Source of the DNA: Zoogloea sp.
GTDB taxonomy: Bacteria; Pseudomonadota; Gammaproteobacteria; Burkholderiales; Rhodocyclaceae
DNA: 64,000 bases
Assembly: GCF_028693495.1 (NCBI RefSeq)
Contig: NZ_JAQUVG010000004.1
Coordinates: 1 to 64,000, forward strand
Direction: 5' to 3'
The notes under the pieces were generated by a model that saw nothing but the letters and a program-made list of their open reading frames with translations, made no database searches and was not told the origin of the DNA. Position numbers and translations under genes: made by a program. Positions 81-59,875 of the stretch are shown here, one piece after another; position 1 is the stretch's first letter; every line of letters begins with the position of its first letter.

Positions 81-989
81 TCAGGGCAAGCCCTCGTCCC
101 AGTAGGGAACGGGACCGATCCGCCCGGCCAGATAGTCCGCCAGCGCCCGCACACGGGTCGGCAGATAGCGGTTGCTCGGGAAAACCGCATAGATTCCCAG
201 CTCAGGGCTCGGATAGTCCACCAGCAGCACTTCCAGCACGCCTTCCCGAATCGCCGGAGCAGCCAGAAAACTGGGCTGACGGGCAATCCCCAAGCCCCGC
301 TGGCAGGCATCCATAAGCGCATCCCCACTATTGGCGTGGAGACGGCCCTGCACCGGAACCCACTGCACCTCCCCTTCTACCCGGTAGGGCCAGGCCGACC
401 GGGCGGTACCGGTATAGCCCAGGCAGTGATGCCCCGTCAGATCCGCCGGCACCTGGGGCCGGCCGTGGAGCGCCAGATAATCAGGAGAGGCCAGGGTCAG
501 CAGGCGGGACGAACAGATGCGCCGGGCCACCTGAGTCGGATCCAGCTGGGAGGTGATCCGGATCGCCATGTCCAGGCCATTTTCGATCAGGCTCACCTGA
601 CGGTCGTTGTAATCCACGTCCAGGCTGACCTCCGGCCAGGCCCGCACGAACTCGGCCACCAGGGGCGCCAGGTGGCGTATGCCGAAGCTCACCGGCACGC
701 TCAGGCGGATCGAGCCGCGCGGGATCCGGTCTCCGCCGGACAAATCCCCTTCGGCTGCACTGACCAGATCCAGAATTTCCCGGCAGCGCTCCAGGTACAC
801 CTCCCCTTCCGCAGTCAGCCGCAGACTGCGGGTACTGCGGGCGATCAGCTTCACTCCAAGATGCGCTTCCAGACTGGCAATCATCCGCGTCACGGCGGAA
901 CGGGCCACCCCCAGATGATCCGCAACCGCGGCAAAGCTCCCTGCCTCAGCCACGCGAATGAAGACCTCCATCCCTTGCAAGCGATCCAT
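81..989 (-). CDS. LysR-family transcriptional regulator
   Basis: A 302-residue protein of standard LysR length. Residues 1-60 form the winged helix-turn-helix (MDRLQGMEVFIRVAEAGSFA, then a typical SAVTRMIASLE recognition helix region), and residues 90-295 form the periplasmic-binding-like effector domain. It is divergent from the extradiol dioxygenase gene at 1085 across 95 bases, the usual layout for a LysR protein that controls its neighbour. The effector is unknown. The start is the ATG at 989, where homology to the family begins directly. Confidence 0.9.
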   Translation of the reverse strand: MDRLQGMEVFIRVAEAGSFAAVADHLGVARSAVTRMIASLEAHLGVKLIARSTRSLRLTAEGEVYLERCREILDLVSAAEGDLSGGDRIPRGSIRLSVPVSFGIRHLAPLVAEFVRAWPEVSLDVDYNDRQVSLIENGLDMAIRITSQLDPTQVARRICSSRLLTLASPDYLALHGRPQVPADLTGHHCLGYTGTARSAWPYRVEGEVQWVPVQGRLHANSGDALMDACQRGLGIARQPSFLAAPAIREGVLEVLLVDYPSPELGIYAVFPSNRYLPTRVRALADYLAGRIGPVPYWDEGLP

Positions 990-1084
990 TGTTTCAATTT
1001 CCGCAACAAAAAGTTTTCAATTTAAGGGTTTTTCCACCCAAATGAAAAGCCTACAGTGTGGCCAATTCCAGTAAGGAAACCGGC
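990..1084. promoter_or_regulatory. divergent promoter region with TTTCAATTT direct repeat
   Basis: This spacer between the LysR gene and the dioxygenase gene is AT-richer than its surroundings. It carries two copies of TTTCAATTT at about 992-1000 and 1015-1023, 23 bases apart (about two helical turns), which could be regulator contact sites. The promoter role is inferred from the divergent layout. Confidence 0.35.
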
Positions 1085-1900
1085 ATGTCCCTCCGACACC
1101 CTGTACTCTTCCTCTCCCACGGCGCCCCCGACATCCTTCTCAAGGGGGGCGCCAGCGTTGCTCTCTGGAAACAGCTGGGCGCAGCGCTGCCGCGCCCCCG
1201 AGCCATTCTGGTCATTTCGGCCCACTGGGCAGCCCGGATGCCCCTGGTCAGCACCGCGGCCACTCCGGAAACCATCCACGATTTCGGCGGTTTCCCCCCT
1301 GCCCTCTACAGCATGCACTATCCTGCCCCCGGCGCCCCCACGCTGGCAGCCCGGGTAGCGGATCTGCTGCACTCTGCCGGTCTTCCCTGCGAGGAAAGCC
1401 CGCACCGGGGGCTGGACCATGGCGCCTGGATTCCCCTCAAGGCCATGTTCCCGGATGCAGACATCCCGGTCCTGCAACTGGCCCTCCAGCCCTTTGCGGG
1501 CCCCGGGTGGCATTTCAGGATCGGACAGGCCCTGCGCGCCCTTCGGGAAGAAGGCATCCTGATCCTCGCTTCCGGTGCCATCACCCACAACTTTGCCTGG
1601 CTGACCTGGGGCGAGGACAGCGCGCCCCTCCCACAGGCCAGGATGTTCTCCGACTGGACTGGGGCAACACTGGCCCGGGGCGACCGGGAGATCCTCCTGG
1701 ACTATCGCCACCAGGCCCCCCACGGCGCCGCCGCCCACCCCAGCGAGGAACACCTGCTGCCCCTCTTCGTCGCCCTCGGCGCCGCGGATCCGGAAGAAAC
1801 CCCCCTGCGCCTGGAACCCGAATTCATCCAGGGTGGTCTGGCAATGGACGCCTATCTCTGGCAGGACGCCAGCCCAACCCCCTTTCACCCGGAACACTGA
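1085..1900 (+). CDS. ygiD: LigB/YgiD-type extradiol ring-cleavage dioxygenase
   Basis: A 271-residue member of the DODA (4,5-DOPA extradiol dioxygenase) class III ring-cleavage family. The metal-site motifs are visible: SHGAPD near the N terminus, ISAHW around residue 50, FGGFPPALY, GLDHGAW and ITHNF. The family opens catecholic rings with a single metal ion in the cytosol, and the physiological substrate of most bacterial members is uncertain. The ORF track starts at 1058, but the ATG at 1085 follows AAGGAAAC and begins at the conserved N terminus. The next gene starts two bases after the stop, so it may be cotranscribed with the cytochrome b561 and YceI genes. Confidence 0.88.
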   Translation: MSLRHPVLFLSHGAPDILLKGGASVALWKQLGAALPRPRAILVISAHWAARMPLVSTAATPETIHDFGGFPPALYSMHYPAPGAPTLAARVADLLHSAGLPCEESPHRGLDHGAWIPLKAMFPDADIPVLQLALQPFAGPGWHFRIGQALRALREEGILILASGAITHNFAWLTWGEDSAPLPQARMFSDWTGATLARGDREILLDYRHQAPHGAAAHPSEEHLLPLFVALGAADPEETPLRLEPEFIQGGLAMDAYLWQDASPTPFHPEH

Positions 1901-1902
1901 CC

Positions 1903-2442
1903 ATGCCTGCACCCTCACCCCGCTACACCGGCCCGGCCATGGCCGCCCACTGGATCATGGCCGTCCTGATCCTGGTGGCTTTTCCCCTGGGCGTTTACAT
2001 GCAGGACCTGCCCCTGTCCCCCGACAAGCTCAAACTCTACTCGTACCACAAATGGATCGGCATGACCGTGCTGCTGCTGTTCCTGCCGCGCCTCCTGTGG
2101 CGCATCACCCATCGCCCGCCCGCACCCCTGCCGATGCCCGCCTGGCAGCACCGGATCGCCGAGAGCACCCACCACCTGCTCTACCTGCTGATGGTACTGG
2201 TGCCCTTGAGCGGCTGGCTGATGAGCTCGGCCAAAGGCTTCCAGGTGGTGTATTTTGGTGTCCTGCCCATTCCCGACCTGATGGGCAAGGATCAAGGCCT
2301 GGGTGACTTCTTCCTGCAAGCCCACAAGCTGCTCAACTTCGCCCTGCTGGCCCTGGTCGGCCTGCATGTGGCTGGCGCCCTCAAACACCAGATCCTTGAC
2401 AAGGACGGCACCCTGCGCCGCATGCTGCCCTTCGGTCAATAA
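1903..2442 (+). CDS. cytochrome b561 family membrane protein
   Basis: A 179-residue protein with four hydrophobic helices (about 11-33, 48-68, 88-108 and 140-160) and candidate haem-ligand histidines at 16, 49, 141 and 155. It belongs to the bacterial cytochrome b561 (YceJ) family, di-haem inner-membrane proteins that pass electrons across the membrane. The track ORF from 1507 is an overlong reading through the dioxygenase gene; the ATG at 1903 fits the family N terminus. The yceJ-yceI pairing known from E. coli is kept here, with two yceI copies downstream. Confidence 0.9.
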   Translation: MPAPSPRYTGPAMAAHWIMAVLILVAFPLGVYMQDLPLSPDKLKLYSYHKWIGMTVLLLFLPRLLWRITHRPPAPLPMPAWQHRIAESTHHLLYLLMVLVPLSGWLMSSAKGFQVVYFGVLPIPDLMGKDQGLGDFFLQAHKLLNFALLALVGLHVAGALKHQILDKDGTLRRMLPFGQ

Positions 2443-2460
2443 ACCCTTCAGGAGAAACCC

Positions 2461-3039
2461 ATGCCCTTCCGTACCGCTTCCCTCGCCCTGGCCGCCAGCG
2501 GTCTGCTGCTGACCGGCACCGCCCAGGCCATCGAATACAACCAGGTGGATGCCACCCGGAGCAGCCTCGCCTTCACGTCCAAGCAGATGGGCGTCCCGGT
2601 GCCCGGCAGTTTCAAGCGCTTCAATGCCAGCATCGCCTTTGATCCCGCCAGGCCGACGGCTGCCAGCACCACCCTCGAAATCGATCTGGCCAGCATCGAT
2701 GCGGGCTCCAGGGAGGCCAACGATGAAGTAGTCGGCAAGCAGTGGTTCAACGTCAAGGCCCATCCCACGGCCCGGTTCGTCTCCACCGGTGTCCGCGCCC
2801 TGGGCAACAACCGCTTCGAAGCTCTGGGCAAGATGACCGTCAAGGGCCAGACCCGGGACGTGGTCGCCCCCTTCACCTTCAAGCAGGAAGGCAGCGGCGG
2901 CGTCTTTGACGGCGGATTCGTGCTCAAGCGCATGGACTACGGCATCGGTGAAGGCCCCTGGGCCGATGTGTCAGCCGTCGCCAACGAAATCGAAATCAAA
3001 TTCCGGGTCGTCGCCAACGCCGGCCCGGCCAAGAAGTGA
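2461..3039 (+). CDS. YceI family periplasmic protein (copy 1)
   Basis: A 192-residue protein with a signal peptide ending at about residue 23 (TAQA|IEYN) and a YceI lipocalin-like beta barrel. The family typically binds a long isoprenoid or similar lipid in the periplasm. Conserved features include the DATRSSLAFTSKQMG strand, a central TVKGQTRDV turn and a C-terminal EIEIKFRV strand. It starts 18 bases after the b561 gene, with AGGAG upstream. A second, diverged YceI follows, so this is a local duplication or a paired functional unit; the ligand is unknown. Confidence 0.9.
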   Translation: MPFRTASLALAASGLLLTGTAQAIEYNQVDATRSSLAFTSKQMGVPVPGSFKRFNASIAFDPARPTAASTTLEIDLASIDAGSREANDEVVGKQWFNVKAHPTARFVSTGVRALGNNRFEALGKMTVKGQTRDVVAPFTFKQEGSGGVFDGGFVLKRMDYGIGEGPWADVSAVANEIEIKFRVVANAGPAKK

Positions 3040-3091
3040 GCTCACAGTTCACCCCCAACCCCCAGTCTCATGATCAAAACGGAGTAAACCC

Positions 3092-3658
3092 ATGAAGAAG
3101 CTCATCGCCCTCGCCCTCACCGCCGGCCTGTCCACCGCAGCCTTCGCCGCGCCGGAAACCTACAGCCTGGACAACAGCCACACCTTCCCCCGCTTCGAAT
3201 ACAACCACTTCGGCTACTCCCTGCAGCAGTCCGGCTTCGACAAGACCACCGGCGCCATCACCCTCGACCGGGCCGCCAAGACCGGCTCCGTGGATGTGAC
3301 CATCGACGCCACCTCCGTGAATACCGGTTCCAGCCTATTTAACCAGCACATTCAGGGTGAGGACTTCTTCGACACCGCCAAGTACAAGACCATCACCTAC
3401 AAATCCACCAAGGTGAATTTCGATGGCGACAAGCCGAGCACCATTGAAGGCAACCTGACGATCAAGGGCATCACCAAGCCGGTCACCCTGACCGTCACCC
3501 ACTTCCACTGCATGCCCCACCCGATGCACAAGAAGGACGCCTGCGGTGCCAACGCCACGGCCACCATCAAGCGCAGCGAGTTCAATGCAGGCAAATACGC
3601 CCCCTATGTGGGCGACGAGGTGAAGCTGTCCATCGTCGTCGAAGCCGTCAAGAGCTGA
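3092..3658 (+). CDS. YceI family periplasmic protein (copy 2)
   Basis: A 188-residue secreted protein with its signal peptide cut at about residue 19 (AFA|APE). The YceI domain includes YSLDNSHTFPRFEYNHFG and LTIKGITKPVTLTVTHFHC. It differs from copy 1 in having two cysteines near the C-terminal third (HFHC and KKDACG) that may form a disulfide. It follows copy 1 by 52 bases and is followed by a clear terminator, so it is the last gene of the b561-YceI unit. Confidence 0.9.
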   Translation: MKKLIALALTAGLSTAAFAAPETYSLDNSHTFPRFEYNHFGYSLQQSGFDKTTGAITLDRAAKTGSVDVTIDATSVNTGSSLFNQHIQGEDFFDTAKYKTITYKSTKVNFDGDKPSTIEGNLTIKGITKPVTLTVTHFHCMPHPMHKKDACGANATATIKRSEFNAGKYAPYVGDEVKLSIVVEAVKS

Positions 3659-3676
3659 CCTTCCCCGCTTCCCCCG

Positions 3677-3713
3677 ACGCCCTGCCGCCCGTCCCGGGTC
3701 GCAGGGCGTTTTT
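3677..3713 (+). terminator. rho-independent terminator after the YceI genes
   Basis: An ACGCCCTGC / GCAGGGCGT nine-base-pair stem with a loop of about 15 bases is followed at once by a run of T. It ends the ygiD-b561-YceI transcript. Confidence 0.8.
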
Positions 3714-58950: not shown

Positions 58951-59029
58951 GATCACCCTGACACCGGGCATTTCAAACACATTCGTGAGGCTGCTCGAGC
59001 CGTTCAAGCGCTCACGACCCTCCGCTCAA

Positions 59030-59416
59030 TCGGGATAAGAGCAGTCAGATTATCTGACCACCCCCTCCCGCCCCCCCATGCGGGTCCGTACCGGGCGCTT
59101 GGAATGGTTGAGGCAGTCCGCAGGCAAATCCTAGGGCACACCCCTGGTTACGCCAGTTCCAGTTGGGCAAGGTTGATTGCCTGGCTCCCGGAGCATTGAG
59201 GGTGGATACATGCGAGCTTTGGGTTAATGAACATCTGAGACTCCCCGCTCTCGACAACTCGGGTGCTCCACCTCCCATTCCTTCAGCCCTTCACCCCAAG
59301 ATGGCCACCCACCACTGTGGCCTCTGCATGAGTTCTCTATCCACTTCACTTCGTCGCTGTGACCAACCTGCAGCCGGCCTTACACCCGGAGGAAGGCGCC
59401 CATACTGGGCGCGCAC
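59030..59416 (-). mobile_element. ORF-less, decayed class C group II intron
   Basis: Read on the minus strand, the element starts GTGCGCGCCCAGTATGGGCG, followed by CTCCGGGTGTAAGGCC and an internal CTGAAGGAATGG. These match the 5' end and domain I motifs of class C group II introns (for example GUGUG-CCCGGCAUGGG and CUGAAGGAAGC). Near the 3' end CGCCCGGTACGGACCCGCAT resembles domain V. GGTCAGATAATCTGACTGCT followed by CTTATCCCGATT resembles domain VI with its branch region. Domain V has several mismatches. No reverse transcriptase is encoded in about 387 bases. It sits just past the rplQ terminator hairpin, the known target type of class C introns. Confidence 0.6.
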
Positions 59417-59421
59417 CAAAG

Positions 59422-59449
59422 CAAGAAGCCGGCTTACGCCGGCTTCTTG
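59422..59449 (-). terminator. terminator of the ribosomal/rpoA operon
   Basis: CAAGAAGCCGGC/GCCGGCTTCTTG, a 12-base-pair stem with a four-base loop, follows rplQ. On the minus strand its expected T tract is cut short after GCTTTG, where the group II intron sequence begins. Confidence 0.8.
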
Positions 59450-59473: not shown

Positions 59474-59875
59474 TCAGGCAGCGACCTGCTCGGTATCCTG
59501 GGCAGCTACTTCACCTTCGGGGCGATCCAGAAGTTCAACGAACGCCATCGGAGCATTGTCGCCATCACGGAAACCGCACTTCAGGATGCGCAGGTATCCA
59601 CCGTTGCGGGTGGAGAAACGCTGACCCAGCTCGTCAAAAATCTTGACGACCATCTCGCGATCGCGGAGACGGTCAAAGGCAAGACGACGATTCGCCAGGC
59701 TCGGCTTCTTGCCGAGGGTGATCAAGGGCTCAACCACTTTGCGAAGCTCCTTGGCTTTGGGCAGCGTGGTCTTGATGACCTCGTGCCTCAGCAGGGAGTT
59801 CGCCATGTTGCGCAACATCGCCTGACGGTGCGCGCTGGTGCGGTTGAGCTTGCGAAGACCATTACGGTGACGCAT
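59474..59875 (-). CDS. rplQ: 50S ribosomal protein L17
   Basis: A 133-residue L17 with the standard start [20 protein letters not shown] and [17 protein letters not shown]. It is the last gene of the alpha operon in its usual place after rpoA. Confidence 0.97.

Follow-up and report, generated by a model that had tools for sequence, protein, structure and literature searches.

Behind the rplQ terminator of Zoogloea sp.: a probably dead ORF-less class C group II intron with internal deletions

The window analyzed here, a stretch of 64,000 nt from a Zoogloea sp. contig, raises the question of what lies directly behind the terminator of its ribosomal-protein/rpoA operon. An earlier note had proposed a compact ORF-less class C group II intron of about 387 bases at positions 59030-59416, either decayed or non-autonomous. 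We put the probability at about 93% that the element is an ORF-less class C (IIC) group II intron that has lost internal segments and is dead. The features of the locus are the following:

59474-59875, minus strand: rplQ (L17), the last gene of the ribosomal-protein/rpoA operon
59422-59449, minus strand: intrinsic terminator hairpin of rplQ (12 bp, loop GTAA), the insertion target
59029-59416, minus strand: whole intron remnant (termini, alignment with the G227 relative, domain V-VI model)
59344-59416, minus strand: retained 5' end, the start of domain I (82-84% identity to RT-bearing and ORF-less class C introns)
59338-59345, minus strand: junction of the 229-nt domain I deletion (pairwise alignment with the G227 relative)
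59286-59365, minus strand: sub-threshold match to RF01998, group-II-D1D4-1, in the domain III region (17.6 bits, E 0.89)
59102-59294, minus strand: domain IV of the ORF-less type (domain IV model R2; signature GTCTCAGATGTTC-N8-RAAGCTCGC at 59212-59241)
59068-59100, minus strand: domain V, with 4 nt lost and the canonical helix no longer formed (alignment, model R1, fold test)
59029-59067, minus strand: domain VI hairpin, foldable, and the 3' end CCCGAT (model R1, fold test)

The element spans minus-strand positions 59416 to 59029 and reads GTGCG...CCCGAT over 388 nt. The proposed GUGCG start was correct; the end lies one base further than had been given. Both termini match those of intact class C introns (GTGCG start, CCGAT end) and follow the pattern of the class (5' GUGYG, 3' AY). 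For the 3' part, a covariance model of domains V-VI (R1) was built from 30 relatives, with the window copy excluded. It gave a single match in the 64 kb, at 59113-59029 (44.5 bits, E 5.6e-9), so that the resemblance to domains V and VI was borne out by the very search that had been suggested for it. The closest relative was an intact 628-nt ORF-less copy in a genome of another genus (G227; locus L215, minus strand), which itself lies behind a terminator and shows 83.2% identity over 381 aligned bases. The score of this alignment (419) stands 22 SD above that of shuffles of the core (229 +/- 8). By sequence, the window element is a copy of a class C group II intron. As had been noticed before, no reverse transcriptase (RT) is encoded within its 388 nt; this feature of the class is absent by definition in ORF-less members.

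Bacterial class C introns insert directly behind intrinsic terminator hairpins (PMC8919778; PMC4424553). The window copy starts 6 nt after the end of the terminator stem at 59422, which agrees with the placement claimed earlier, and the relatives lie at sites of the same kind. The terminator tail in the window, CTTTG, is short, and the insertion had been held to truncate the T tract of the operon terminator. An intron-free relative (L111), however, carries a stem and tail that hardly differ from these (AAGAAGCCGGG...GGCTTCTTGCTTTTGG), and truncation by the intron is therefore not supported. In three congeners (G010, G023, and G017), rplQ, its terminator, and the convergent end of cysN have the same arrangement with no insert between them. 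The insertion is therefore probably restricted to this Zoogloea species or its near kin. The exact empty site would read CTTTG joined to TGAGCGGAG, a junction that stays putative because the empty-site genomes belong to other species with diverged intergenic DNA.

The comparison with the G227 relative showed what the window copy has lost. It lacks 229 nt, from G227 positions ~72-74 to 301-303, a deletion that takes out nearly all of domain I and ends at short imperfect repeats (by eye, GCGACG..GTGA). The core of the Rfam family RF02001 (G227 positions 82-253) is wholly absent, and the region of RF01998 (G227 positions 271-354) has lost its first ~30 nt. In the intact relatives RF02001 scores 95-110 bits, and three of the four also match RF01998. 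Since the domain I core, which holds the exon-binding region, is deleted, the window copy is classed as a remnant and not as a working intron. The domain I motifs reported earlier are thus present in the first ~73 nt of the intron, and the remainder of the domain is missing; natural compactness gives way to a ~628-nt type that has undergone the deletion. A placement of the 5' end inside domain I by MAFFT was discarded and replaced by pairwise alignment with long gaps.

Further damage was found downstream. Domain IV lacks 12 nt relative to the G227 copy, with several conserved pairs broken, and the catalytic helix of domain V has been destroyed by the loss of 4 nt: the intact helix folds at z = -3.0 and that of the window copy at z = +0.4, in line with the mismatches that had been pointed out. 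In the Rfam scan of the window, no family passed at gathering scores; at relaxed limits RF01998 was weakly matched (17.6 bits, E 0.89) and RF00029 gave no match, a near-blank result that is due to the bad damage of the element. The fold of the whole 388-nt stretch was no better than that of shuffles (z = +0.4) and is uninformative. Of the 74 columns invariant in nine relatives, the window copy keeps 61 (82%), the same share as its overall identity, which argues for neutral decay. These columns give no sign of selection on the window copy, which appears to drift neutrally.

The genome contains other internally deleted class C copies that keep both ends, of 276 nt (contig C133), 152 nt (C27), and ~129 nt (C169). 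Such copies would be in keeping with the idea that the 388-nt form is a functional minimal non-autonomous element, MITE-like and moving in trans despite missing most of domain I. However, every short copy carries a different deletion, and a second copy with the deletion seen in the window was found neither in this genome nor in any of the 150 relatives (0/150). Besides, domain V of the window copy is unfolded and its invariant columns decay like the remaining sequence, and we regard a functional short form as very improbable.

The loci noted for internally deleted class C introns that keep both ends are L120:1086-1361, L028:3178-3329, L121:848-976, and L038:1502-1948, and the deletion differs from one to the next. 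In the C133 copy the deletion junction falls at a GCGGAC repeat. Template jumping or slippage of the RT could be the source of internally deleted copies.

The parent type of the window copy was sought among its relatives. The check for matching ends that the earlier note had asked for came out positive, and an intact RT-bearing class C intron of the same genome is among the relatives that have them. The interior of the window copy matches a domain IV covariance model of ORF-less introns (R2; 77.7 bits, E 1e-20) and contains the 13-nt signature GTCTCAGATGTTC exactly. The signature is exact in all ORF-less copies of ~630-655 nt examined except that on a Rhizobium plasmid, which has one mismatch; the exact form occurs in G006 (8 copies) and in six other genomes of the family. 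It is absent from the other 79 RT-bearing loci, the match in L154 being that of its ORF-less neighbour, and no match was found in the viral contigs searched. Of 399 genomes of the family, 8, spread over five genera, have the longer pattern with N8-RAAGCTCGC after the signature. As the window copy carries both this pattern and the R2 match, its sequence assigns it to an ORF-less lineage of ~630-655 nt.

The domain IV fold itself is strongly supported by covariation: 95% of cells are paired, 29 pairs have changed on both sides, and none of 500 shuffles scored as high. One idea was that only the ORF-less lineage has this structured domain IV; it was abandoned, as the RT-bearing introns tested, with few exceptions, also match the model where their ORF begins. 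The fold is therefore probably the usual structured part of domain IV, where the RT binds in other group II introns. It overlaps the first RT codons in almost every RT-bearing class C intron tested (L135-L210). No Rfam family of its own was found for it in the four loci scanned.

The same genome carries, on contig C146, a class C intron that does encode an RT; its ends are the same, and it lies directly behind a terminator. Its domains V-VI are intact (105 bits), and its uninterrupted protein of 456 aa was identified as far as the group II RT/maturase level (TIGR04416, 417 bits). With such an intron at hand, one may propose that the window element is the remnant of an RT-bearing class C intron whose ORF was lost after insertion here. 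Both ends are common to RT-bearing relatives, and the domain IV model also matches the structured start of their domain IV. The stretch TGGCGTAAC, too, looks like the WRN codons at the RT C-terminus; it was dropped as an RT remnant, as the ORF-less G227 copy aligns through it. The absence of the signature from RT-bearing introns and the lengthwise alignment of the interior to the G227 copy strongly disfavour such an ORF loss, and comparison at the DNA level with the C-terminal region of the RT gave nothing significant. Chance resemblance of intergenic DNA, or a 3' regulatory region of rplQ, would fit the lack of an Rfam family at gathering score and the uninformative whole-stretch fold, but is refuted by the E-values of the two models (6e-9 for domains V-VI, 1e-20 for domain IV), the 22-SD alignment, and the match of both ends.

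The preferred reading of the element gains its context from the lineage elsewhere. In the Zoogloea genome G006, eight near-full ORF-less copies of 644-653 nt, with 93-100% identity to the query copy, occupy different places behind terminators or stand directly head to tail, and two of the arrays end in an RT-bearing copy. The G227 copy and the G006 family (653 nt) share with the window copy their ends, domain III-IV sequence, and kind of site, but unlike it have domains I and V intact. The 5' halves of the G006 copies are 94-98.5% identical to the RT-bearing introns of the same genome and 90-95% identical to the ORF-less copies of other genomes. This pattern suggests exchange with helpers, and a faster change of domain IV could contribute to it. 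Head-to-tail ORF-less arrays behind one terminator are seen in L131 (G006:C4:50000-54200; 554-3702), L128, and L129; their copies are nearly identical, and in L131 and L129 an RT-bearing copy follows.

Similar ORF-less elements are found on plasmids of Cupriavidus campinensis and Rhizobium sp. CIAT894. A related intron without RT lies on an E. coli plasmid (NZ_CP122941.1, L231:2501-2953) beside holin/lysis and tail-fibre genes, in phage-like surroundings; 101 Escherichia plasmid records match the query, and among the matches listed several have a piece of the same size.

We propose that the lineage, which has no RT but retains its ribozyme along with the structured portion of domain IV, would reverse-splice into DNA immediately after intrinsic terminator hairpins and be copied by an RT that an RT-bearing class C intron supplies in trans. 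Once inserted behind rplQ, the window copy would have lost 4 nt of domain V and, between short imperfect repeats, the 229 nt of domain I, and would then have drifted without constraint; the order of these steps is inferred. The choice offered earlier between a decayed and a non-autonomous element therefore falls to both, for the ORF-less lineage has multiplied elsewhere and the window copy is most probably dead; neither splicing nor movement is expected of it.

Mobilization of the lineage in trans is a well-motivated proposal, but has a counterpoint. G033, G227, G428, and G328 carry one intact ORF-less copy each, and in none of these four genomes was a group II RT detected: the TIGR04416 search gave no match in G033, G428, and G328, and in G227 nothing beyond a weak RT match within a frame of 1242 codons. 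The solitary intact introns are at G033:C1:1102329-1102958, L215, L216, and L219, and two of the host genomes are single contigs.

The window copy thus represents a known kind of element, the remnant of an ORF-less class C intron. It resembles class C introns in its GTGCG start, CCGAT end, domain V/VI type, terminator site, and RT-bearing kin in the same genome, and differs from them in lacking an RT and most of domain I and in its broken domain V. HYERs, the hydrolytic endonucleolytic ribozymes, lack an RT. They come from group II-C introns (cited in PMC11127173), and this class C origin is common to them and the ORF-less lineage. ORF-less bacterial group II introns are rare and have lost retromobility according to a review (PMC4424553). 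Like those reviewed, the present lineage has no intron-encoded protein and has related RT-bearing introns in the same genome; unlike them, it numbers eight near-full copies, 93-100% identical, in a single genome and also occurs singly in genomes where no group II RT was detected.

The window copy is a fossil, and its value is that of a pointer to a recognizable ORF-less class C lineage, which is of more interest than the copy itself. The lineage occurs in the family of the host and on plasmids of Cupriavidus and Rhizobium. Tentatively, and at somewhat less than even odds, it may be persistent and horizontally spread and parasitize RT-bearing class C introns, much as SINEs ride on LINEs. With a helper at hand it would multiply behind terminators; without one it would survive alone, possibly with a DNA-cleaving activity. 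The near-identical copies at several terminators in one genome would offer a natural system for testing mobilization in trans.
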